From assembly GCA_030710605.1 (NCBI GenBank), contig CP092865.1:29668190-29732189 (forward strand): a stretch of 64,000 nucleotides of DNA. The letters are read 5' to 3'. Origin of the DNA: Cordylochernes scorpioides. Taxonomy: Eukaryota > Arthropoda > Arachnida > Pseudoscorpiones > Chernetidae. This document shows, one piece after another, positions 1,180 to 62,823 of this stretch (its first letter is position 1; each line of letters starts with the position of its first letter). The notes under the pieces are model-generated. The model ran no database searches and was not told the origin of the DNA. It saw nothing but the letters and a program-made list of their open reading frames with translations. A program made the translations under genes and the position numbers.

Positions 1180-2673
1180 CACTAGTGTCCAAAAAATAAG
1201 AAACTTAACCAATATTGAAATTTCTCAAAAGCTAATTTATTAACAAATATAAAATTTAGTATACAAATAGTTTACACTATGGAGAATTTGACTAGCTATA
1301 TGAAAATAAATAAAAATATTTGAAATTATGAAATATGCAAATTATTACCAACATACCCGAAGCTAAGGTTCCAGATCTTAAAGAAATAAGTTATCAATAG
1401 GGAATATGATCACTTTTAACAGCTATCAAGGTCTCACAGCGAGCCCTCATACTGTTTACCAGGCTTTGGAGGAGGTCCAGGGGTAGTAAACCCCACTCCT
1501 CCAATAGAGCAGTTCATAGCTCAACGAGGGTTCTGGGAGAGGGGTGACGAGCTCCAATACGCCTCCCTAGAGCATCCCACACATGCTCTATTGGATTCAG
1601 GTCCGGAGATCTTGCTGGCCAATCCATCCTTCGAATATTCTCACTCTGGAGATATTCATTGACTAGCCTAGTCCTATGCGGACGAGCATTATCGTCAATT
1701 AAAATTAAATTGTGACCAATTTGATCTCTATAAGGTCTTAGATAGGGCTCAAGGATCTCGTCCCTGTACCTTTGGGCAGTTAAAGTGCCCCCAGAAAAAA
1801 TGTGGAGGGGTGTGCGTCTGCTAAAACTGATGCCGGCCCAGACTAAGAGACTGCCCCCTCTAAAACTGTCTATTTCCCTGATGTTACTGGGATGATAGCG
1901 GGTTCCAGGCTCCCTCCAGATGAAAACTCGTCGAGAATCTGTGTTTAAACTAAATCTTGACTCGTCACTGAAGAGAACATTGGCCCACTGGTCATGAGTC
2001 CAGGCGTGATGTTCCAAGCACCAATTCAAGCGGGCTCTCCTGTGGGCAGAGGTTAAAGGGATACAGACCAATGGTCGTCTTGCATAAAGAGCACCTTCGT
2101 GAAGCCTTCGGTAAACAGTTTGTCTTGAAATTCTCGTTCCAGTAGCACTTGAGAGTTCATTAGAGAGTTGAATAGCTGTCATCTCCCTATGGCGCTTGGC
2201 AGTTACGACCAGATAACGGTCTTCATAGGTAGCTGTTTTTCTTTTTCTACCAGAACCTTCTTTTCTTTTGATGGTTCCTGTCTCAATGAACTGTTTCCAT
2301 ATTTTGCTGACCACAGATTTATTCACATTTAGCCATTTTGCTACTTCAACTTGTGATTGCCCTGCCTCCATTCTTCCAACAGCTCTCCATTTTAAATCAT
2401 CTGCTAAAATATTTCGTAAACTCATAATTAACTAAGGATTAAATAAAATTAAAATTGGACAATTCTTAGATGGGGTAAACGACACGCCAAATAGCACACT
2501 TATAAAGACAAGCAAAAATTGGCATATTTTCAATTTTACCTAATCGAATGGTTGCGATAAATAAATTCTACGACTTAAAATACCCAATTAAATTACTTTT
2601 TAGCTTTTAGCGTTGTATTATTTTTAACATATCATTAAAAAACAAAAGTTTCTTATTTTTTTGGACACCAGTG
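1180..2673 (-). mobile_element. Tc1-family DNA transposon with TIRs
   Basis: Terminal inverted repeats are visible at both ends: CACTAGTGTCCAAAAAATAA on the left and its near-exact reverse complement on the right (one mismatch, one extra A). The ends are flanked by TA at 1178-1179 and 2674-2675, the expected Tc1/mariner target duplication. Length is 1494 bp. It holds one transposase ORF on the minus strand, filling most of the interior. The near-intact ORF and ends suggest a fairly recent insertion. Confidence 0.9.
1514..2425 (-). pseudogene. Tc1 transposase, DD34E, stop near C-terminus
   Basis: A 303-aa reading frame. The N-terminal ~110 residues hold paired helix-turn-helix DNA-binding regions (QVEVAKWLNVNKSVVSKIWK and a second, TIQLSNELS-type helix set). 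The DDE domain shows FSDESRF, IDDNARPH and SPDLNPIEHVWD; I count 34 residues between the second D and the E, the classic Tc1 spacing. The frame stops at a TGA at 1514-1516, but the same frame continues for about 39 more family-like codons to a second stop near 1395, so the first stop is probably a nonsense mutation. The enzyme would catalyse cut-and-paste transposition at TA sites in the nucleus. Confidence 0.88.
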
Positions 2674-4669: not shown

Positions 4670-4740
4670 GCATCGGTGGTTCAGTGGTAGAATGCTCGCC
4701 TGCCACGCGGGCGGCCCGGGTTCGATTCCCGGCCGATGCA
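4670..4740 (+). tRNA. tRNA-Gly (anticodon GCC)
   Basis: A 71-nt cloverleaf: acceptor stem GCATCGG / CCGATGC with discriminator A, D arm around GGTTCAGTGGTAGAA, anticodon loop CTGCCAC with GCC, T arm CCGGG-TTCGATT-CCCGG. The B box GGTTCGATTCC is perfect. A long T-run follows at once, a Pol III terminator. No CCA is encoded, as expected for a nuclear eukaryotic gene. It is one of four nearly identical copies in about 21 kb. Confidence 0.96.
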
Positions 4741-7747: not shown

Positions 7748-9168
7748 CACTGCGTGACATTGAAAATGGAACACCAAGAAATAGTGGCCAGAAAATTATG
7801 CAAATTTCAGGGTAGACGCGCCTAACCGAGTTATGCAAATGATGTAAAATGCGCAGCTCTCGTGCGCACATGGAGTAAGATATAAGGGAAGGAACTTGCA
7901 GAAAGGACAGTATTCGTGTCGTTATTTCTTCAAGGAAAATCATTGTAGAAATTTTGATCTTGTGTCAAAAGACACGTGTAATAACAGAGAATGCCAGGTC
8001 ATCGTAAACGGAGGCAGTTCAAGCAGACAGACGCTTTTACGAGGGGCATGGTGATCGGACTGAAAAGGGAAAGGTTGGTCTATACGTCAAATCGCAGCTG
8101 ATACACACCTTGGTGCGTCCACGGTGCACCGACTGTGGAATAGATGGTTGGAACAAGGAAATGTGGCAATTTATAGGAATGTCGGTGCAACCAGAGTGAC
8201 GTCAGCACGTGTGGATCGGCGTATCCTTCGACAAGCAGTGGCGGCCCCACAAGCCACTTGTACCGCCATCCTGCAACATGTGCAAGACACCCTAGATCAT
8301 TCCATCTCGACCAGAACCATTTCCCGTCGATTGGTTGCTAATGGCTTGCACTCATGCCGTCCGCTAAGAAGACTGCCATTGACCCCACCGAATAGGCGCC
8401 AACGTTTGGAATGGTGCCGGGCTAGATCGACGTGGATGACGGAATGGCACAGGGTCGTGTTCTCAGATGAGTCGCGTTTCTGCTTGTCCAGTGATAGTCG
8501 CCGTGTACGCGTGTGGCGTCGACGTGGAGAAAGGTCCAATCCGGCAGCAATTGTGGAACGCCCCACCGTGCGGCAACGTGGAATCATGGTTTGGGGCGCA
8601 ATCGCGTATGATTCCAGGTCACCTTTACTTCGTATTCAGGGCACTATGACGGCCCAACGATACGCTGATGATGTGCTGCGACCGGTGACACTCCCCTACC
8701 TTCAGGGGGTACCCAATGCCCTTTATCAGCAGGATAACGCCCGACCGCACACTGCTCGCATTAGCCAACAAGCTCTGCAAGATGTACAGATGCTTCCCTG
8801 GCCACCGTACTCTCCTGATCTCTCACCAATCGAGCACGTCTGGGACATCATTGGACTCAGTTTGCATGCGTTGCCACAGCCGCGTTCAGAAGACGAACTG
8901 TGGCAAATGGTTGAGAGGGAATGGAGAGCCATGCCTCAGGACGCCATCCGTACTCTGATTGACTCTCTACCTAGACGTGTTGCTGCGTGCATCGCCGTCC
9001 ACGGTGGTCCTACTTGCTACTAAGCCGACGCCGTTCTCGCTCTGTATTATGACTATCATTTTGAAATAAAGATCACTTATTGTTCGTCCCTGTCTCTCAC
9101 TGTCTGCCGAGTTTTAATCACTTTCTGGCCACTATTTCTTGGTGTTCCATTTTCAATGTCACGCAGTG
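7748..9168 (+). mobile_element. Tc1-like transposon with 47-bp perfect TIRs
   Basis: The first 47 bases (starting CACTGCGTGACATTG) reappear as exact reverse complement at the right end, flanked by TA at 7746-7747 and 9169-9170. Length is 1421 bp. One transposase frame on the plus strand fills the interior. Identical TIRs and a single frameshift point to recent activity. The GC-rich coding part contrasts with the AT-rich surroundings. Confidence 0.92.
7990..9023 (+). pseudogene. Tc1-like transposase, DD32E spacing, one frameshift
   Basis: From about 8073 a long frame (299 aa from the ATG at 8124) carries HTH (TVHRLWNRW, ISTRTISRRL) and DDE motifs: FSDESRFCL, QQDNARPH, YSPDLSPIEHVWD. I count 32 residues between the second D and the E, two fewer than classic Tc1. 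An upstream ATG at 7990 starts a basic N-terminus (MPGHRKRRQFKQ) in another frame that stops soon; a one-base indel around 8063-8072 explains the break. A form starting at 8124 would lack the first HTH. Similar 32-residue spacing is, from memory, common in spider Tc1-like elements. Confidence 0.88.
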
Positions 9169-13397: not shown

Positions 13398-13468
13398 TGC
13401 ATCGGCCGGGAATCGAACCCGGGCCGCCCGCGTGGCAGGCGAGCATTCTACCACTGAACCACCGATGC
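13398..13468 (-). tRNA. tRNA-Gly (anticodon GCC)
   Basis: Reverse strand, same 71-nt sequence as the gene at 4670-4740, with all arms, GCC anticodon and both internal promoter boxes. A run of Ts follows after about 4 nt, a Pol III terminator. Confidence 0.96.
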
Positions 13469-15534: not shown

Positions 15535-15740
15535 TTACGAAGGAGTATCTTTTATTATATTTGTGCAAGCTTTCGAACTTTGCAGTTCTTCGACAGGCAC
15601 GGATAGCACAGAAATACTACCTATAGGGTACCTAAGGGTAGTATTTCTGTGCTATCCATGCCTGTCGAAGAACTGCAAAGTTCGAAAGCTTGCACAAATA
15701 TAATAAAAGATACTCCTTCGTAAAAACCTTTGATTCGTTA
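15535..15740. repeat. near-perfect palindrome, ~95-bp arms
   Basis: Arms about 15537-15630 and 15641-15735 are near-perfect reverse complements (one or two mismatches). The right arm reads CTGTCGA, then GAAC...GTTC, then GAAA, again hammerhead-core-like but with the invariant A of CUGANGA changed. Confidence 0.8.
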
Positions 15741-18852: not shown

Positions 18853-18923
18853 TGCATCGGCCGGGAATCGAACCCGGGCCGCCCGCGTGGCAGGCGAGCA
18901 TTCTACCACTGAACCACCGATGC
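18853..18923 (-). tRNA. tRNA-Gly (anticodon GCC)
   Basis: Identical in sequence to the genes at 4670 and 13398. Short T-run after the 3' end. About 100 bp upstream (minus strand) is a TATATA motif in a block shared with 13978-14165. Confidence 0.96.
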
Positions 18924-22280: not shown

Positions 22281-24656
22281 TATATATTGGAAATCATTTA
22301 GTGACTCTGATGGCTCAGCGGTTCTCCTCATTCATTCTATATATCCGGCTCGTCTCATTTATCATACTTTGATTTATTAAGGAAGCAACATCCATAATAT
22401 CAGAACATTTTGTTATCTCAGGTAGTCTTGACATATGTTCAAGTTTACATTTATCCTTTTTGTTTCTCAATTGAGTCAATTTTAGGGTTTTCTTCTTTTA
22501 TTGGCGGTGTTTCAAGTTTCTCCTCAATACATTAGTGAAGGTGAAATATAACTGTCTCTTTCTTGTAAATTATCTTTATCAATGCCATTTATTTAGTTAA
22601 ATGCCTACTATATGCCGCTATTGGTCTTCTTTACACTTCTGAGAAGTCCATATATACTCAAATACCATCCCCAAGATTCTCATTGCGATAATATAGGATA
22701 TATAAAGACAAATGTTCAATGCTGATTGAACTTCTTATTAATCAAGCTGGTCAAATATGTCTAAATGTCTCATCACTGATGAGAACCAGATCTTTCTAAT
22801 AAAATTATACAATAATAAAATTATAAGACAATGAAAAACTATAGAATAATGAAATTATAGAATTATGTATATATGATTGTGTTAAACAATAAAATTAAAC
22901 GTCTATTATTACTAGATGTTAAGTAGATAGTTTAGAACGTGTCAGTAATGTTTTTACATCAGAAAAAAAAAGAAATAGCCTCATGTTGTAAATAATTCTT
23001 TTATGTCTTCTGAAATGGCTGCAAATTCCGTCTACAGACTATTATATACTTCCGACTATAGTCCTTGGTGAGAAATGATGGAAGAAATAAACGAATTCAA
23101 CAACAAATTGTCCCGACCTTGATGCAATTGGTAATTTCTCCATGTTTTTCAAGTCTACTTTGGAAATTTTCCTTATAAGGTTTATTTCCCTTCAATCCGT
23201 ATAGTTATCGTCCATACGTTTGATATAGTTGTTAAATAGAAACTTTTTTGGTAGTTTTTAAACGATTTCCACAATCCTGAAAAAACAACTTTTATTTAAG
23301 AAATAATTCTAATTTGAATTTAAGTCAATATGATAGTCATACAAAACAGAAATATTAGAATAAAATTGAAAACAATTCCAAATTTACAAATAGAAGCTTC
23401 CATTTTACCAGTATGGACATGTCATTTGAAAATGCTACAGGATCATAGACCTTTTTTTTAACCATACAACGGCACATATAGCTGATTCTGTAAATATTCT
23501 AAATATATAATACACAATATATATAAAATAAATTTCAATATAAAATATTTACACACCTTTCTATATTTAAATCTTTAATATATTATAAAACCTCATGGCA
23601 ATTTGGCTAGAAGACTTAAAAGTATATATGAAAATATAACCAAAACTGGTTGATATCGTTTTGATATCAGAATATGCAAATATATCACAATTATTTTGTT
23701 AGATATTTTGCTTATGTATATAACTTAACGAAAGATATTTCCGTAAAGATTGAGGCTGCCTGGCCGGAATTCATAGTTCTTCAAATTACACACAAAGCCC
23801 TTATTAAGACGTTAGTCTTATACAGATTCTCCGTACAAGGTGCAATAACAGGAAAGAGCAGCACAGGAAACCAGTAGTTCCGCAACTGTATACAATTATT
23901 AGTAATAAGGAAAAGTAAGATTTAATATGAAAGGTCGACGCCATCGCCTCAAGTCTTCAATTCCATAAGCGCGGAGCAGAAATAGGAACTAAGTTATTTA
24001 GTTCGCCATAAATATCGCATCCAGACACAAAAAGGAGGTAGTTCTTCAAATTAAGATACTTAAAAAATATTATTGTTTAATTATTGTGTTCCTCTTTACA
24101 CCTCTGGAAAGCATATATGACGATCTATCTGCCCACCTGAGAAATTTAGAATGTCTGGGTCTGAATACTGAGATGGCAGGCATGTTTCTATGCCCATTGG
24201 TTGAACTCAGTCTGCTCTTGGACGCACAGATAAAGTAATAAATCGTGACAATTTAGCTAGAAAATTCTAATATATAAATGTAAATATTTCAATTATTTTG
24301 TTAGCTTTCTTCTGTTACATGTATTTATATAACTCTTAGCGAAAAATATTTTTAGTGTGTATTTATTGTGTTACTCTTTACACCGCCTTATTTCTCAAAT
24401 TCTTGATTAAAGTTAATAATTGTATTATTGTACATATAAATTAATTTTGAAATTTTTAATCATTTAATTTAATTTATATTCTGGAAATGTCTTTCAGAGA
24501 TAGCTATCGTAAAATTGCGGAAAACATGCTCCACCAAGAATATTGATTGGTAAATCATCTACATTGGTATTGAACAAGATTTTAGCGCATATAATATATT
24601 TTAAGTAATCAAATTATTCAATGAATTTGTATTCAAATAATATATATATATATATA
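22281..24656. other. no gene seen
   Basis: Long AT-rich stretch with short ORFs only. 23753-23790 repeats the block found at 19270. A (TA)n run ends the stretch at 24640. Confidence 0.5.
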
Positions 24657-24767
24657 AAATGGCATATCCTGACCAGGAGCACATCTGGTGGAACAGAAAT
24701 CAACTAAACATTGATTTAGCCTGTTCCCTGATATTTGGCCAACCCAATTTCTTGATAAATCAAGAAA

Positions 24768-24822
24768 AGCCATCCACGAACGCGTTTCGCGCTTTTTGGC
24801 GCTCGTCAGCGTGGAGTAGGCT
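24768..24822 (-). ncRNA. type I hammerhead ribozyme, copy 1
   Basis: Minus-strand copy, identical to 25119-25173 and to the plus-strand copy at 25570-25624, where the structure is described. Confidence 0.82.
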
Positions 24823-25118
24823 GAACCATTGAGACCAAAAAATATTTTTTGATCCCAATGGCCTCCTTAAAAACCAAGAAATGGGTATTTAAGGCCAAAC
24901 TTGCGTAAATACGCTTAGCACATTAAAAAACGAAATAAAAAAATAAAAGATAAAAAGATCAGGTGTTGAAATCAATATAAAAAATGGCATATCCTGACCA
25001 GGAGCACATGTGCTTTACAGAAGGCAGAGCGCCATCTGGTGGAACAGAAATCAACTAAACATTGATTTAGCCTGTTCCCTGATATTTGGCCAACCCAATT
25101 TCTTGATAAATCAAGAAA

Positions 25119-25173
25119 AGCCATCCACGAACGCGTTTCGCGCTTTTTGGCGCTCGTCAGCGTGGAGTAGGCT
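25119..25173 (-). ncRNA. type I hammerhead ribozyme, copy 2
   Basis: Minus-strand copy, 351 nt from copy 1. Cleavage at both on one transcript would release a 351-nt RNA. Confidence 0.82.
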
Positions 25174-25569
25174 GAACCATTGAGACCAAAAAATATGTTT
25201 TGATCCCAATGGCCTCCTGAAAAACCAAGAAATGGGTATTTAAGGCCAAACTTGCGTAAATACACTTAGCACATTAAAAAATTATCAAGAAATTGGGTTG
25301 GCCAAATATCAGGGAACAGGCTAAATCAATGTTTAGTTGATTTCTGTTCCACCAGATGGCGCTCTGCCTTCTGTAAAGCACATGTGCTCCTGGTCAGGAT
25401 ATGCCATTTTTTATATTGATTTCAACACCTGATCTTTTTATCTTTTATTTTTTTATTTCGTTTTTTTAATGTGCTAAGCGTATTTACGCAAGTTTGGCCT
25501 TAAATACCCATTTCTTGGTTTTTCAGGAGGCCATTGGGATCAAAAAATATTTTTTGGTCTCAATGGTTC

Positions 25570-25624
25570 AGCCTACTCCACGCTGACGAGCGCCAAAAAG
25601 CGCGAAACGCGTTCGTGGATGGCT
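25570..25624 (+). ncRNA. type I hammerhead ribozyme, copy 3
   Basis: In order: outer stem I AGCC (25570-25573), internal loop TACT, inner stem I CCACG (25578-25582), core CTGACGA (25583-25589), stem II GCGC-CAAAAA-GCGC (25590-25603), core GAAA (25604-25607), very short stem III in CGCGT, U at 25613 as the cleavage-site base, inner stem I CGTGG (25614-25618), internal loop AT, outer stem I GGCT (25621-25624). All invariant bases are present. An internal loop in stem I facing the stem II loop suits the known tertiary contact. The minimal stem III is as reported for Penelope-like and retrozyme hammerheads, which are thought to act as dimers. Confidence 0.85.
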
Positions 25625-25820
25625 TTTCTTGATTTATCAAGAAATTGGGTTGGCCAAATATCAGGGAACAGGCTAAATCAATGTTTAGTTGATTTCTGTT
25701 CCACCAGATGGCGCTCTGCCTTCTGTAAAGCACATGTGCTCCTGGTCAGGATATGCCATTTTTTATATTGATTTCAACACCTGATCTTTTTATCTTTTAT
25801 TTTTTTATTTCGTTTTTTAA

Positions 25821-26050
25821 TATATATATATATAAAAGTCAATTTCTGTCTGTCTGTTTCGCGATAAACTCAAAAACTACTGAACCAATTGGTACCAAAT
25901 TTTGCATGTCGCTTTTTATAAACCTGAGGAAATTTTTCGGCTGCATTTTGATTAGTATTTTTGGCTATTTATTTTTTTCATTTGAAGAACTTTTTTTTAC
26001 GCGGACTAATCCGGAATGGAATGAATACCTAAATATGGCCTTTTTTTTAA
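25821..26050 (+). mobile_element. Helitron 5'-end-like fragment
   Basis: TATATATATAAAAGTC followed by a tctgtctgtctg run and gcgataaactcaaaaactac has the look of Helitron 5' ends (compare 26163 and 54121). No TC start is visible because the ribozyme array abuts it. It breaks off before the tRNA-Gly. Confidence 0.5.
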
Positions 26051-26121
26051 GCATCGGTGGTTCAATGGTAGAATGCTCGCCTGCCACGCGGGCGGCCCGG
26101 GTTCGATTCCCGACCGATGCA
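26051..26121 (+). tRNA. tRNA-Gly (anticodon GCC), two substitutions
   Basis: Same 71-nt gene as the other three but with CAATGGTAG in the D arm and a G-to-A change at the base of the T stem (CCCGA in place of CCCGG), which breaks one pair. Followed by T7. It may be a functional variant or a decaying copy. Confidence 0.88.
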
Positions 26122-38457: not shown

Positions 38458-40262
38458 ATGGCGACGAGGCTTTCGTTCGAACCATATGTAATGAAAGAAG
38501 AACCTTTTGAAAATTATATTCAACGATTCAAACAGTATATTTTTGTGAATGAAATCGAAGGTAAGAAGATTGTTCCTTTTTTATTATGTCTATTGGTGCA
38601 AATACTTATAGTATTCTAAAAGAATCAATCTCACCTAGAGATGTTTGTGCATTAGAATTCGAAGAAATTGTTAGTGTTTTACTTACTCATTTTACACCTA
38701 AGTTAAATATCATTTTTGAAAGATATGAATTCAGCCAATTGATTCAGGAACATGGCGAAAAAATAGAAGACTATGTCCTCAAATTAAAAAAACAAGGTAA
38801 TAAATGTAATTTTGGCTTAAATATTGAAGAACACCTAAGGGATAAGTTAATTGCAGGAGTTTATAATCAAGTTATTTTGAAAAGATTACTGCAAGAGCCT
38901 GAGCTCACTTTTGATATGGCAGTACATATGGCTACCACAATAGAATCGGTAGATTGTAATGTGCTGAAAATGAAGTCTTATGCTGAAACTAAAGAAATAA
39001 ACAAATTACATTCTAAATGCAAACATTGTGGAAAGATGAATCATCATTCGGACAAATGTTTTTTTAAAAATTCTTTCTGCTATTCTTGTAAACAATTGGG
39101 ACATATATCAACTGTTTGTCATTCAAAATCTAAGAATGGATATTTTCAACCAAGAAAGAGAGGAATATCTAGTGAAGCGTCTGCCCACGGAGAATCATTT
39201 TTGGGAAAGAATGGTGAGTCCATCAATAATGTAGAATATTTGACTAATAAATTTGAGAGTATTTTGTATGTCTTCGACATAAAATTCTTAGCAGAAATTG
39301 ACACTGGTGCGGCTTTAACAACTATGTCAAAAGATATATTTTTAAAATATTTTGAACATATTAAATTGTTTCCATCTAAATGTTATTTAACTGATTATCA
39401 AGGAAATGGCATTTCCTCTATTGGAGAATGTAAAGTAGAAGTAAGATTTAAAAATAAAATAGGCCATTTAAACTTAATAGTAACAAATATTAAAAATAAT
39501 AAATTTCTCATAGGAAAAGACTGGATAGTATATTTTGATATGGTACAAATTAATGTCCAACAAAATAATAATTTTGATACTAATTTAATTTTTAATAAAT
39601 ATTATAAACTTTTCGAAGATATAGTCTTGCCAATAAAAGATATTTCCGTACACATTAATGTAAAAAATAATTTTGCGCCAAAGTTTTATAAATTTAGACC
39701 TGCTCCCTTTGCTATTAGGAATTTAATTGAAGAAGAACTATTATTTTTATTGAATAATGATATTATTGAAAATGTAGTGGATAGCCTAATAGCTTCACCG
39801 CTAGTATGCGTCCCTAAGAAAAACGGCAAAATTAGAATTTGTGCAGACTTTAAGAGAATCTTAAATCCATTTATCGAAGATGTTAAATATCCGATACCGA
39901 ACATCGATAATGTTTTACATTCTTTTTTTGGTAAAAGTATATTTAGTAAAATTGATATTTCAAGCGCATATCATCAGATACTTCTAGACGAGGAATCTCA
40001 AAAATTGACAGTTATTTCTACCCATAAAGGCCTTTTTAAATATAAAAGGCTGCCCTTCGGTATCAAGTCCGGAGCGACTATTTTCCAAAGAACTATGGAC
40101 AATATTTTTTCCGGTCTTAAAAATGTAATAATATATTTAGACGATATTCTTATAGCATCGTCTGATATAAATGAGCATATTTCAGATATTGAAACAGTCA
40201 TGAATAAATTATCTGATTTTAATTTTTCAATTAATAAAGAAAAATCTTTGTTTTTTTGTTGA
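38458..40262 (+). pseudogene. gypsy gag-protease-RT frame (broken)
   Basis: An ATG at 38458, overlapping the primer site, opens the gag N-terminus (MATRLSFEPYVMKEEPFENY) in one frame; a shift near 38590 moves to the 558-codon frame 38586-40262. In the latter: gag capsid-like part, two zinc knuckles CKHCGKMNHHSDKC (145-158) and CYSCKQLGHISTVC (165-178), aspartic protease IDTGA (238-242), and RT with ICADFKRIL, IDISSAYHQI, RLPFGIKSG and active-site YLDD (517-520). The frame ends at a T-rich run at 40250-40262, where a shift separates it from the rest of RT. Confidence 0.9.
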
Positions 40263-41208
40263 TGAAATCAATTATTTGGGACATAGAATAAATAAAAATG
40301 GAATCTATCCCCTTGATGATAAATTGGACAGTATAAAAAAATGTCCTAAACCGAGTAACATTTCAGAATTGAAATCTTTCTTGGGCATGTTGTCATTCTA
40401 CAGTAAATTCGTTAGAAATTTATCCATACATGCAAATCCTTTATTCTCGCTATTGAAAAGAAGTTTTAATTGGAATTGGAAAAAGAACATGATCAGGCTT
40501 TCGAAAAATGTAAAAATTTGATTAGTACAAAAACTTGTTTGACGCATTATTCGCAAGATTTACCTCTTTATGTTACTTGTGATGCATCAAATTATGGTAT
40601 TGGAGGATATATTTCCCATATTGTAAACGGCATTGAGAAACCAATTACTTTTGTTTCAAGAACACTAAATGACACAGAAAAGAAATATTCCCAGATAGAA
40701 AAAGAAGGCTTTATCAATATTCTTTACCTTAAACAGGCTAAAACAATTTCTTTACTGAAGAAAATTTATTATTAATACAGATCACGAACCATTACTAGCC
40801 ATTTTTGACGATAAAAATAATTTACCAGCCTTAGTGGCAAATAGATTACATAGATGGTCACTCTCAATATCAAATTTTAATTTTGAAATTAAATATACTA
40901 GGGGAACTGAAATACCTCTTGCAGATTTTCTTTCAAGATTTCCAAATCCTGAAAAAGGGGAGAAGGAAGATGAAATGGGAGAAATATTATTAATAGAAAA
41001 TTCGATATTAGATTACGTCTTGGTACCGTACAAAACCCAAGAAGATCCAACTCTTAGAAAACTATATAAATTAGTCAAGTATGATAAGTATGATATTGAC
41101 TCAGAGGTAGATATAAAACCTTATAATAGAATTAAAAACGAGATAACAATAGTAAGAAATTGCTTATTTTTCGGAAATAGAATGATCATCCCCGATTCCT
41201 TAAGATAA
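40263..41208 (+). pseudogene. gypsy RT thumb and RNase H (frameshifted)
   Basis: 40276-40521 continues RT with GHRINKNGIYP and LKSFLGMLSFYSKFVRN. 40470-40775 gives RNase H CDASNYGIGGYIS and FVSRTLNDTEKKYSQIEKE. 40834-41208 gives HRWSLSISNFNFEIKYTRG and DFLSRFPNP. At least two frameshifts (near 40490 and 40760) and a stop at 41206-41208 break it. Confidence 0.88.
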
Positions 41209-41214
41209 TATGTT

Positions 41215-42264
41215 TTGAAAATCATTCATGAAAATCATATTGGAATAAATAAAATGAAGACTCTGGCCAGAAGTTCTGTCTATTGGCCGGGAATGGATGA
41301 GCAAATTGAAAAACTGTCTAAAAGCTGTAGCATTTGTATGGAAAACACATCAAAGCTGCCAAACCAGGAATTTACTGAGTGGACTCCACCAAACAAAGTT
41401 TGGAAGATGATTCATCTTGACTATTTCTATTTTGCGGGAAAAACTTTTTTGATATTAGTGGATGCGCATTCTAATTGGATAGAATGTCAAATGGTTCCAA
41501 ATACATCGGCGGGATTCTGCATAGACTTTTTGAGAGAATGTTTAGCGAGATATGGTATCCTGGAGGTGGCGGTAATGGATAATGGGCCCCCGTTTAGAAG
41601 TTATGAAATAAAGACATTTTTCGAAAGAAATGGCATACATGCGATGTTTAGCCCCGCTTACCATCCGGAGAGCAACGGACTAGCGGAAGTGTCTGTAAGA
41701 GAGATAAAAAAAGCTATGAAAAGAATTATTTCGGAGGAAAGAGAATTACCCCTTGAGTTTGCTTTGATAAAGGCATTATATGCATATAGATTGAGTCCTT
41801 TGACTAGAACGGAAAAATCCCCTGCTGGAATATTTTTAAATCGCGAGATTAGAACGAAGATTTCCTTGTTGAGCAAGAAATCAGTAAGAGTGGGGAGATT
41901 GAAAAATAAAAAACAGAGCAATAGCTACAAAATTAATGATAGAGTAAGATACAGATGGATGGAAAGAGGAAAACCGAAATGGATGTTTGGGATTGTAAAG
42001 AGAATAGTGGGAAGCAACAGCTGTATGATAGAAACTGATGGAATTGAAAAGAAAGTACACACTAACTATATGAGGAGAAGTATGGAGAGTAAGGATGTTT
42101 CGTCATCAGAAGAAGGAATAAGCTACCCAAGGCCTCAGACGTCAAGTCCCCTGACTCCTGCTACAATAGTAGCAGAATCTACACCTGGACCACCGGCTGA
42201 ATCTACACCTTCCCGGAGATATCCACTACGAGAGAGGAGACCACCGGATAGATATGTACCTTAA
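41215..42264 (+). CDS. gypsy integrase part of pol
   Basis: 349 codons open. HHCC zinc part HENHIG...CSIC (residues 5-41). Catalytic core D69 (HLDYF), D122 (VMDNGPP), E158 (SNGLAEVS) with 35 residues between the last two, the DD35E rule. The C-terminus has a basic stretch and a Ser/Pro-rich tail ending RYPLRERRPPDRYVP. It is in the same frame as the preceding fragment, separated by one TAA, so it would normally be cut from Gag-Pol rather than start here. It would join element cDNA to host DNA. Confidence 0.85.
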   Translation: MKIIHENHIGINKMKTLARSSVYWPGMDEQIEKLSKSCSICMENTSKLPNQEFTEWTPPNKVWKMIHLDYFYFAGKTFLILVDAHSNWIECQMVPNTSAGFCIDFLRECLARYGILEVAVMDNGPPFRSYEIKTFFERNGIHAMFSPAYHPESNGLAEVSVREIKKAMKRIISEERELPLEFALIKALYAYRLSPLTRTEKSPAGIFLNREIRTKISLLSKKSVRVGRLKNKKQSNSYKINDRVRYRWMERGKPKWMFGIVKRIVGSNSCMIETDGIEKKVHTNYMRRSMESKDVSSSEEGISYPRPQTSSPLTPATIVAESTPGPPAESTPSRRYPLRERRPPDRYVP

Positions 42265-48675: not shown

Positions 48676-49999
48676 CGAGGTGTGTTCAAAAAGTATCGCG
48701 AATTTTGAATTTTCGCGGGTTACGTATATTCGAATTTTGATCTTTTTGTGGCTTTATGTTGGTACTCATGTCTCTCACTTATGCCGACAAGCTCGGCCTT
48801 TTTGAATGTTCACTTAATTGTTGACAGCTGCTTTGCTTGCAGGTGTTTTGGATCGTCTTCGATTTTTAATTATTAAAAAAAAAATGGATCAAAGAACCTG
48901 TATCAAATTTTGTGTGAAAAAAGAAATTAAGTGCGCGGATGCATTCCGAATGTTGACTGTGGCATACGGAGAAGCTACATTGGACCGAAGCAACGTTTAT
49001 CGGAGGTACAAAATGTTCTCAGAAGGCCGAGAAGATGTGAACGACGAAGAGCGTGCCGGACGCCCGAGCAATTCAACAACAGACGAAAAAATTAATGAAG
49101 TGGAGAAAATGATATTGGCCAATCGTCGAATCACCGTTAGAGAAGTTGCTGAGCACCTACACATATCGATTGGCTCGTGCCATTCGATTTTTATCAATGA
49201 TTTGGGCATGAGACGGGTCGCCGCGAAATTCGTACCAAAATTGCTCAATTACGACCAAAAAGAGCATCGCATGAACATTGCTAATGAGATGTTGGACTCT
49301 GTCCGCGACGACCCAAATTTGCTCCAGAGGGTCATAACTGGTGACGAAGCGTGGGTTTATGGTTATGACGTGGATACCAAAGCTCAATCATCTCAATGGA
49401 AGCTGCAGCACGAACCAAGACCGAAAAAAGCGCGCCAAGTTCGGTCGAATGTGAAAGTTTGCTGACGGTTTTCTTCGATTGCAGGGGCGTGGTGCATCAT
49501 GAGTTCTTGTCACAGGGTAGAACGGTCAATAAGGAATATTACCTGCAAGTTATGCGCAATTTGCGCGAAGCAATCCGCCAGAAGCGCCCGGATTTGTGGA
49601 AGAACAAAAATTGGCTTTTGCACCACGATAACGCCCCTACTCACACATCGTTGCTTGTGCGCGACTTTCTGGCCAAAAACAACACACTAATGATGCCGCA
49701 GCCACCGTATTTCCCAGATCTGCCCCCCTGTGACATTTTCTTGTTCCCTAAACTTAAGAAACCCATGAAAGGACGATGTTACACTACGCTTGACGAGATA
49801 AACACGGCATCGAAGGAGGAGCTAAAAATATTTTTTTTTAAATGATTTTTTGAAGTGCTTCGAAGATTGGAAAAACCGTTGGCCCAAGTGTATAATATCT
49901 CATGGGGATTACTTTGAAGGGGATAAAATAGGTATTCACGAATAAATAAATAATTTTTGAAAAAACACAAAAGTCGCGATACCTTCTGAACACACCTCG
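48676..49999 (+). mobile_element. mariner-family transposon
   Basis: Imperfect TIRs CGAGGTGTGTTCAAAAAGTA and the reverse complement of CGAGGTGTGTTCAGAAGGTA, flanked by TA (48674-48675, 50000-50001). 1324 bp, one transposase. The left flank is gypsy pol, the right flank another transposon fragment. Confidence 0.93.
48884..49845 (+). pseudogene. mariner transposase, DD34D, one frameshift
   Basis: Preferred start is the ATG at 48884 (MDQRTCIKF), not 48818. First frame to 49465: HTH regions (ATLDRSNVYRRYKMF; ITVREVAEHLHISIGSCHSI) and the first catalytic D in ITGDEAWVYGYD. A shift at about 49460-49465, in a GTTTG run, leads to the frame 49396-49845 with HHDNAPTH and PDLPPCDIFLFPKLK; 34 residues separate those two Ds, as in mariners. 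The usual YSPDLAP reads YFPDLPP. Broken by the one shift. Confidence 0.9.
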
Positions 50000-60358: not shown

Positions 60359-61531
60359 TCAAAAGGCATTTTTTTTTACATGTTTTTCGTCCATGGGGTG
60401 AGTATCCCTGGATAGGGTATGAGCCACAATCAGGTATTTTCCTGGTTTGTACTGCAATTTGAAGTCAAATGCTATAAGCTTCATTACTAATCTTTGTAGA
60501 CGCGGTGATATATCACTCAGCGGTTTTTTGACTAGAGGCAATAAGGGCTGGTGATCCGTCTGGACAACGAAAGTGTGTCCTGACAATAGATATTCGAACT
60601 TTTTGCATCCATAATAAACACTCAATAACTCCTTCTCAATCTGAGAGTACTGTTTCTGCGAGTCGCTAAATGACGCGGATGCGAATGCTAGAGGTCGATC
60701 TTCCTGTAGCAGAGCAGCTCCCATTGCATCTTTGCTGGCATCACACTGCAAAATCAGCATCTTGCTTTTGTCAAAATGTGCCAACGAAGGAGCATTCCTC
60801 ACGCATTCCTTAATATGATCGAATTCCCCATCCTGTTTAGGCCCCCAATGCCAGACAACATTCTTTCTTAAGATTCCTCTTATATTGGATGTGGACGCAG
60901 CTAAGTTTGGAATGAATTTTCCTAAGTAATTATAAAGACCCATGATTCTTTGCAGCGACTTTTTATCCTCTGGCCTTTTAAAGGTAATTAATTTATCAAT
61001 CTTATTTGGCTCTGGATCAATTCCATTTTGTGATATCACATGGCCCAAGAAACGAACTTTCGTTAGACATATTTGAGCCTTTGTTAAATCAAATTTGATA
61101 TTTTTTTCTTTTGCTTTTTCTAGAATTCCCTTTAATTTTTTATTGTGCTCTTGAATGGTATCCGCATATATCAGCAAATCGTCTACATATGTAATATTTT
61201 GAAAGCTATCCCTAAAGATATTCGTCATTTTCTCAACAAAAATTTGTGCCGATATTTTCAAACCAAATGGCAATCGGTTATATCTGAATTTGCCAAATGG
61301 CGTGGTCATCACCAACAGATCTCTGCATTCCTTTGCAACCGGAATATGCCAATAGGCTGATTTCACGTCTAACACGGTATAATACTTAGCTTTGGGTATC
61401 TCGTGCAATAGTTCAGCTGGAGCCGGAGTCTGGAAATGTCTTCCCACAAGAGCCTCATTTAATTTCCGAGGATCCAGGCATATTCTGATTTGACCAGATT
61501 TTTTTTTACAACGACCATAGGATGAGACCAC
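60359..61531 (-). CDS. gypsy reverse transcriptase-RNase H
   Basis: 390 codons from the first ATG, but its true N-terminus is the end of the preceding frame. RT: IRICLDPRKLN, VLDVKSAYWHI, NRLPFGLKIS, active-site YVDD (115-118), FLGHVISQNGI. RNase H: QCDASKDAMGAALLQ, FASASFSDSQKQYSQIEKEL, TDHQPLLPL, ending with the short DTHPMDEKHVKKNAF. The frame stops right after RNase H, 70 bp before the 3' LTR, with no HHCC or DDE domain. The enzyme would copy element RNA to DNA in cytoplasmic particles. Confidence 0.92.
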   Translation of the reverse strand: MVSSYGRCKKKSGQIRICLDPRKLNEALVGRHFQTPAPAELLHEIPKAKYYTVLDVKSAYWHIPVAKECRDLLVMTTPFGKFRYNRLPFGLKISAQIFVEKMTNIFRDSFQNITYVDDLLIYADTIQEHNKKLKGILEKAKEKNIKFDLTKAQICLTKVRFLGHVISQNGIDPEPNKIDKLITFKRPEDKKSLQRIMGLYNYLGKFIPNLAASTSNIRGILRKNVVWHWGPKQDGEFDHIKECVRNAPSLAHFDKSKMLILQCDASKDAMGAALLQEDRPLAFASASFSDSQKQYSQIEKELLSVYYGCKKFEYLLSGHTFVVQTDHQPLLPLVKKPLSDISPRLQRLVMKLIAFDFKLQYKPGKYLIVAHTLSRDTHPMDEKHVKKNAF

Positions 61532-62823
61532 TCTGTTTCATGATATATTTTTGTTACGATTCCTTGCTTCACCATCTTTTCCAATTCAGACTGAACTTCG
61601 GCTCCGAGGCTTGTTGGGATGCGCCTGGGAGGGACTTGCACAGGAGAATATTCAGGCTTTGTGTAAATCTTACATTCCGAATTGATTAATCCTACTCCTT
61701 GAAATACTTCGTGGTATTGTTCGAGGATTTTTTGAGTTTCAGAACACAATTTCATTTCATCCGTGTTTATATGATTGATTCGCCTCAAGATTTCAAGCTT
61801 CTCGCAAGTATCGCCCGTGATAAGTGTCTGCGCTTCTACATCGGCTACGATAAATTCAAACATTCCTTTCTTTTCACCATATTGGCATAGCACATTGCAT
61901 TTGCCGACGATAGGTAATTCTGTATTTCCATATGCGAACGCCTTTAATGACGTGGGTCTGATTTCTGGTCTTGATGGCCATTGGTTTATTACTTTATGAG
62001 GAAGCACATTTATCTGTGCGCCAGTGTCCAAATGTACCGTGGTCTTCTTGCCATTAATTATTATTACCGCGGACCACTTGTCCGACCGAACAGTCTTTAC
62101 AGCAACCTCATTAAGATTCATCTCGTCACAGGATTCTTCAGCTTCACTTTCCGCTAAGAGATTTCTTATACGTTTTGTTCGGCAAACTACTGAGAAATGA
62201 TTGGTTTTTCCGCATGCATTACATTTCTTCCCATATGCTGGACACTTTCCATACTTGTGTCGTTGTCCACACCACTTACATGGTTCTATTATTCTTTCTC
62301 TTCTCGGGTTTATACCGCTTGGTCCTGCTTCTGCATTTTCCATTCGAATTGTATCTTTCACCCAATTACGTTTTTCAATTTTTTCAATCATTTTTTGCTC
62401 ATTCAACGATGCTACTTGTGAACATGTTGACTCGGAGATCACAGCTATCGAAATTGCCCTTGGTAGTGTCAACTGTGGATCTTCTAACAATTTTCTTTTC
62501 ACTTCTCGGTCAAGTATTCCAATTATAAGGCGATCCCTTATGAGAGATTCTGTTAAATTCTCGAATTCACATTCTTGTGCCAGATGCTTTAATTCTGTGA
62601 CGAATTCCATGATTCCCTGCTTTTCCTTTTGTACACAGGTAAAAAATGCATTTCTCCTTTGAATCGTATTTTTGAAGGGCTTAAAATGGTTCGTAAGCAT
62701 ATCAAGCATTTCCTTTACATTTGGGTAGGTATCATTTTCACTTATGTGAAATGTTTTGTATATCATCACTGTTTTCTCACCAGCAATATGCTTCAAAATT
62801 GCTCGCTGACGCACCAGCGGCAT
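61459..62823 (-). pseudogene. gypsy gag-protease-RT N-terminus
   Basis: 454 codons from the first ATG; the frame is open further up (EKKWETWRESFEIFAIAVN), with a shift near 62890 between it and a start at about 62935. Gag capsid part (1-140), zinc knuckles CKWCGQRHKYGKC (182-194) and CNACGKTNHFSVVC (201-214), protease HLDTGAQINVL (264-274), RT start PPRRIPTSLGAEVQSELEKM. It breaks at a run of nine As (61501-61509), where a one-base difference leads into the RT frame. Whether that is a mutation, a sequencing slip or programmed frameshifting cannot be told here. Confidence 0.9.

Follow-up and report, generated by a model that had tools for sequence, protein, structure and literature searches.

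The window analyzed here, a stretch of 64,000 nt from the pseudoscorpion Cordylochernes scorpioides, carries a non-coding insertion built of ~351-nt units, the parts of which are given below (unit positions refer to reference unit U).

24658..25818: whole insertion, two arms of ~351-nt units head to head, 5′ ends together and 3′ ends outward
24658..25281, sense strand minus: left arm, with two hammerheads, ending at A; unit positions 54-352, then 1-302, then about 326-352
24654..24660, minus strand: A end, unit position 352, abutting the (TA)n flank
24768..24822, minus strand: hammerhead copy 1, predicted cut 24779/24778
25119..25173, minus strand: hammerhead copy 2, predicted cut 25130/25129
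25281..25282: head-to-head turn, read as the meeting point of two cDNA 5′ ends, unit positions 54 and 226
25282..25818, plus strand: right arm, with one hammerhead, ending at B; unit positions 226-352, 1-352, 1-58
25392..25434, plus strand (also 25744-25786, plus, and 24957-24999, minus): predicted hairpin GGUCAGG/CCUGAUC around start site A
25409..25760, plus strand: reference unit U, 352 nt, numbering set to finish at GGATATGCCATT
25570..25624, plus strand: hammerhead copy 3, predicted cut 25613/25614 (unit 205/206)
25811..25820, plus strand: B end, unit position 58, CGTTTTTT, abutting AA and the (TA)n flank
24639..24654 (left copy) and 25819..25834 (right copy): possible 16-bp target duplication, (TA)n

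Unit U is 352 nt long, most other copies being 351 nt, and its GC content is 39.2%, i.e., below 50%. Approximately 24-26 nt of the unit are absent from the left arm near 24684-24687, the A run at the window's A end is two shorter than in most copies, and the stretch from A to B forms a 58-nt "tail." Repeat finding returned two pairs (249 nt, 99%, at a spacing of 351; 185 nt, 100%, at a spacing of 352) and inverted arms of 360 nt (99%), with no LTR-like pair flanking the arms. An earlier note on this DNA had described a retrozyme-like array, and its non-coding tandem units with type I hammerheads were confirmed: no letter differs among the three 55-nt segments, the two minus-strand copies are 351 nt apart, and the longest stop-free frame within 24658-25818 spans 97 codons, in agreement with the claim of no ORF. 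No long frame for a reverse transcriptase (RT) or GIY-YIG endonuclease was found in the insertion (24658-25818).

Elsewhere in the 64 kb, four tRNA matches were found at 4670-4740 (+), 13398-13468 (-), 18853-18923 (-) and 26051-26121 (+), three scoring 66.7 bits and one 61.4 bits; the last reads by eye as glycine GCC. A mir-16 family match at 15592-15666 (-) scored 41.7 bits (cutoff 36.5) and is possibly a chance hairpin. Frames of Tc1/mariner-type transposases lie at 1514-2425 (-), 8124-9023 (+) and 48818-49845 (+), and retroelement frames at 38586-42264 (+; RVT_1 and integrase domains) and 60359-62823 (-; RVT_1 and RNase H, plus a gag-like match under its cutoff).

Each 55-nt copy carries GAAACGCGTT^CGTGG at the predicted cut. 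At gathering level, Rfam returned no hammerhead in the whole 64-kb window; a permissive search placed Hammerhead_HH9 (RF02275) at all three places with a score of 38 bits, the cutoff being 52 bits (E = 9.8e-8 in a search of 1301 bases), so that the Rfam check proposed earlier recovered every copy as HH9, but only below the curated cutoff. A genome search with RF00163 gave 0 matches, as did its control genomes. In the predicted fold, a single motif forms stems I and II (z = -1.03; 32 of 200 shuffles were as good). Stem III consists of the palindrome AACGCGUU alone; as ACGCGU, it is the sole content between GAA and the cut and is unable to close on itself. The earlier description of a "perfect" type I hammerhead was thus right as to type and too strong as to "perfect," because no closed stem III is available in one copy. 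The predicted double hammerhead of two copies reaches -46.3 kcal/mol vs. twice -20.0 kcal/mol. A bare palindromic stem III makes dimeric cleavage likelier than monomeric cleavage, and cleavage here is probably dimeric, as is that of the minimal hammerheads of Penelope-like elements (PLEs), according to the accessible part of PMC7761336.

Covariation among relatives is better support for the predicted hammerhead structure than the single-motif fold. In a relative at locus L058 (72% identity), CTGANGA and GAAA are preserved, and every one of the three helices shows a single compensatory pair change. When five related hammerheads were aligned (n = 5 sequences; the partial ones in L040 and L042 were excluded), 98.6% of cells paired, and 3 of 500 shuffles reached the covariation seen; three pairs were altered on both sides, one per helix, all in the L058 relative. 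Among the four aligned relatives, L055 3270-3408 lacks one core base (CTGACTA) and L055 2795-3130 has one unpaired stem I cell.

A search of the genome (2.62 Gb, 24 contigs) with the unit gave at least 202 matches, with 31 places among the matches listed. Forty of 341 candidates were scored in this search, and the 31 loci drawn from them therefore favor young copies. Many units match the query over all 355 bases, an identity that indicates a young family. Up to 16 full units were found in one arm (L033). The A-end pattern (an A end beside TATAT, as opposed to the interior of an array) had at least 336 exact hits and none in the reversed control; this is a lower count, because the window's own A end, two A shorter, misses the pattern. 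A search with the L058 relative yielded a subfamily of at least 49 matches (40 of 380 candidates scored), in which all nine inverted pairs among the matches listed were head to head.

The outer ends were nearly constant. In the first set (31 loci among the matches listed: the window and 30 others), 23 loci ended at unit 352 (A) on one side and unit 58 (B) on the other, and none of the 31 had two A ends. L033 is close to this arrangement, ending at B and at 346; in L037, both ends are B and 147 nt of foreign filler are present; L044, L049 and L054 each combine B with one odd end; L041 has one arm only; and L056 and L060 were counted within the 31 without assigned outer ends. The L037 filler (2662-2808) resembles, by eye, a repeat flanking the window insertion at about 25849-25990. 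For the second set, A ends were taken in the order of their listing on contig C1 up to a total of 20, and an exact B end was found in 10 of these 20 loci (L080, L081, L082, L085, L087, L090, L091, L092, L093 and L097). The B end of L095 is diverged, L083 leaves its stretch at unit 51, L096 ends at unit 40, five loci are one-armed (L079, L084, L089, L094 and L098), and L086 and L088 were too long for end reading. Twelve loci of the subfamily were fetched, of which eight were resolvable; read by eye from BLAST coordinates, seven of the eight had A and B ends, the exception being L070, which reads as A+A.

The head-to-head turn, called unusual in the earlier note, is thus the common product of insertion in this family. 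Snap-back copying was rejected as its source, since it would yield two equal ends and most loci have A and B. A long double-stranded RNA could possibly arise from the inverted arms, although none of the results obtained speaks for such an RNA having a role. The arms were also considered as a miRNA precursor, a candidate that was rejected because the miRNA matches of the permissive search lay far below their cutoffs.

Duplications of 11-17 bp were found at seven loci with a target that is not pure (TA)n, of 23 loci examined (L033 was left out of this test). In the control with swapped flanks, 32 of 154 combinations reached at least 10 bp; because TA repeats often produce such lengths, (TA)n sites alone are not convincing, and in the window itself neither the length nor even the presence of a duplication is readable. 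Convincing target duplications were those of L046 and L048. An AT-rich target with a short duplication is the pattern of PLE-type insertion, and duplications longer than 4 bp are those of metazoan non-LTR retrozymes.

The same genome is rich in PLE-type sequences. Of 17015 GIY-YIG candidates, 150 were scored, and these gave matches in at least 146 places, several of them arranged head to head in pairs; six PLE loci were fetched (L061-L066; tails, duplications and the L064 stem were read by eye). L062 and L063 encode RVT_1 with a C-terminal GIY-YIG domain and consist of near-perfect head-to-head pairs (2402 nt, 100%, and 2455 nt, 98.9%, respectively), with one end approximately 30-40 nt longer (the tail); L065 and L066 are similar to them at the DNA level. 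A CTGACGA...GAAACGT motif was seen in all four by pattern and by eye; in L061-L066, Rfam gave no hammerhead at E of 1 or better. L064 (251-4021) is a near-palindrome of 3771 nt, for which a tail of 22 nt and a duplication of 10 bp were read by eye; its CTGAAGA...GAAAG motif is hammerhead-like but uncertain. In L061 (1-5410), a frame with only an N-terminal GIY-YIG domain is enclosed by inverted arms of 2139 nt (99.5%); the frame is interrupted by the edge of the stretch, and we take the layout to be like the permuted Naiad type. Comparison of the unit with the six fetched PLE loci gave AT-rich noise only and no PLE with a matching pLTR, and a GIY-YIG pattern search in the window and the loci fetched to that point found nothing.

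L062 and the unit share ATTTTTTATAT at the A start (L062, CTATTTTTTATAT; unit, CCATTTTTTATAT), and for each of them a stem of 7 bp spanning the start is predicted. The stability of the predicted hairpins was not above that of shuffles (z = -0.37, -1.65 and -1.17). The start-A stem occurs in five variants among the retrozyme copies, all fully paired; across its four distinct stem sequences, two pairs are altered on both sides, and 48 of 500 shuffles reached this score.

Given the fixed A and B ends, the target duplications and the similar layout of PLEs in the same genome, which support the hint at Penelope-like elements in the earlier note, we consider it likely that the insertion is a young non-autonomous non-LTR retrozyme moved in trans by a PLE. 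We infer the ribozyme activity, the PLE as the enzyme and the order of steps, which would be as follows. Transcripts of the tandem copies would be cut into monomers of ~351 nt by neighboring minimal hammerheads paired through their stem III palindromes, and the monomers would then be circularized. Cleavage of AT-rich DNA on both strands by the PLE protein (RT and GIY-YIG endonuclease) would create 3′ overhangs approximately 11-17 nt long. Reverse transcription would be primed by each overhang, one starting at site A in the hairpin and the other at B, 58 nt further 3′. Circling of the RNA by the RT would produce tandem units on each side, and the joining of the two cDNA ends by short microhomology or filler would produce the head-to-head turn.

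Several of these steps have counterparts in an Anolis PLE. As described in the available part of PMC11167929, that element cuts and extends both strands at AT-rich targets; its RT starts at two adjacent internal sites that bound the tail, and the start lies in a stem-loop. According to the same source, RT start sites are equal between strands, and the strict A/B split observed here is therefore unexplained by it. Head-to-head is the most frequent form of PLEs in the portion of PMC3846280 that was covered, which describes inverted pLTRs, 8-10-bp duplications and a 31-bp tail on one of them.

Units within a locus were far more alike than units of different loci. At four marker sites, chosen after viewing the variant data, 599 of 620 within-locus unit pairs agreed vs. 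3153 of 11470 pairs between loci (0 of 500 label shuffles reached the observed agreement), and cross-arm pairs agreed in 164 of 170 cases (14 loci). Variants were counted in the 19 loci holding three or more full units: 12 were shared by every unit, 48 occurred in a single unit and 13 were of intermediate frequency, the last confined to L054, L056 and L060 (gaps at unit 35-60 were masked in variant calls). C51A was present in 6 of 6 full units of L047, on both sides of the turn, and confined to that locus. Both arms carried G149A in L082 (2 of 2 covering units) and T53A and C66T in L083 (4 of 4 covering units); within one arm, all four covering units of L097 had A139T and T152G, and all five of L088 had an insertion. 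All five full units of L086 were 343 nt long. Site 141 was mixed within L081 (2/3) and L083 (3/5); this position (window 25549) lies in an A/T run, and its A/C variant, which some loci carry in mixed form, is perhaps recurrent.

Variants uniform across both arms suggest that one monomer was copied repeatedly, perhaps as a circle, and unit variants are thus the basis on which 351-nt circles are inferred; a transcript of an already uniform linear array would leave the same unit pattern. We give about an even chance to the more specific reading that one self-cut circular 351-nt RNA templates both overhangs, i.e., two-sided rolling-circle target-primed reverse transcription, with one overhang starting at A and the other at B.

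The inner joins differ in place between loci and contain short overlaps or fillers. In the first set, 34 of 55 5′ joins lay in unit 204-320 (expected, 18.3); the fullest 117-nt window of joins starts at 203-204, and 0 of 2000 random sets reached it. The Rayleigh test of these first 55 joins was moderate (P about 0.009). With both sets and six one-armed loci combined, 36 of 83 5′ ends were in unit 204-270 (expected, 15.8) and 4 of 83 in unit 137-203. The sharpest edge was a tie between 204 and 188, the predicted cut being at 205/206. Joins at unit 204-208 numbered 5 of 83 (expected, 1.18), and exact templating from the cut 5′ end alone was rejected on this count. With the palindrome at unit 217-236 left out, 21 of 68 joins were still in 204-270 (expected, 9.6); this palindrome may draw joins. 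Left out of the test were L037 and the left end of L035, as well as L041 and L060, which have no such join; the right end of L034 was re-read by eye as 337, and L093 and L097, whose joins overlap the palindrome at 123-158, were left out of the second join set. The crowding is consistent with an RT that halts where the self-cut RNA begins, or where a circle has been closed, and with some trimming of the ends. Part of it would also be produced if the RT paused at the ribozyme fold or if the palindrome at 217-236 aided joining.

A circle is dispensable if a PLE-type insertion started from a long linear transcript of a uniform array, with the hammerhead trimming it or idle. In vitro, uncut RNA was the main substrate of the Anolis PLE and hammerhead mutants inserted equally well, as stated in the part of PMC11167929 covered here; some PLE in vitro data thus speak against a need for cleavage. 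The variants of intermediate frequency in L054, L056 and L060 and those at site 141 in L081 and L083 also favor a linear template. Against it stand the locus-specific variants in all covering units of L047, L082 and L083 and the uniform 343-nt units of L086, since a separate uniform source array would be needed for each such locus, and the crowding of joins just 3′ of the predicted cut. We regard the linear template as rather unlikely, albeit the strongest competitor.

Mobilization by another enzyme, e.g., a LINE with twin priming that favors (TA)n, appears improbable. Twin priming also yields inverted arms, and duplications of 11-17 bp are usual for LINEs; however, a fixed second end, given the A/B ends among the matches listed, fits two PLE starts better, and the same layout is seen in PLEs of the same genome. 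LINEs are named beside PLEs as candidates in the accessible text of PMC7229834. That the family is a satellite spread by recombination, with inverted joins produced by assembly error and a hammerhead by chance, is highly implausible: tandem units with near-perfect inverted arms are hard to assemble and the curated Rfam cutoff was not reached, but the loci are many and dispersed, with differing joins, target duplications, constant outer ends and compensatory changes in each hammerhead helix.

Metazoan non-LTR retrozymes, as characterized in the part of PMC7229834 (Cervera and de la Pena 2020) available to us, resemble the family in several ways: their tandem units lack coding capacity and measure 150-450 bp, the hammerhead is of type I, the GC content is below 50% and duplications exceed 4 bp; circular RNA and PLE mobilization are proposed there. 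The family differs in its minimal palindromic stem III, which resembles the PLE form. The words "inverted" and "head-to-head" have 0 occurrences in the main text of that article, and A/B ends were likewise not met in the parts covered. The likeness to PLEs, within the portions of the PLE sources covered, comprises head-to-head ends, a one-sided tail, an AT-rich target, a short duplication, a minimal hammerhead and perhaps the predicted stem-loop at the RT start, whereas the lack of an RT/endonuclease ORF, a tail of 58 nt vs. 30-40 nt and arms of up to 16 full units are unlike PLEs. Plant LTR retrozymes are likewise non-autonomous retroelements with hammerheads and a circular RNA step, a step that is proposed here; they have LTRs, PBS, PPT, type III hammerheads and 4-bp duplications (PMC7229834, same portion), in contrast to the type I hammerheads and longer duplications of this family. 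Newt satellite and other dimeric hammerheads, likened by description in the accessible parts of PMC7229834 and PMC7761336, have a stem III too short for one copy, and dimers are expected. The family has the testable features of a retrozyme and is not an autonomous PLE, there being no ORF; judged by analogy from its insertions, the retrozyme appears to work like a PLE passenger.

Both the enzyme that moves animal retrozymes and the role of the RNA circle as template were left as proposals in the text of PMC7229834 that was available, with PLEs "a strong candidate." A literature search, mainly of titles and abstracts with little subscription content and thus weak evidence, found no retrozyme with A/B ends or head-to-head arms. 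To the PLE proposal, the present analysis adds an insertion structure that points to PLEs and the uniformity of both arms. A PLE-like signature, together with the record of a mostly uniform template in both arms, provides exact start sites, a candidate hairpin and many loci, which makes the proposal directly testable. Under the two-sided rolling-circle reading, if true, the retrozyme would be a parasite of PLEs pared down to a ribozyme and a hairpin for RT start, with the hammerhead serving to supply an endless template. Insertions with such PLE-like marks may help to explain the spread of ribozyme repeats.
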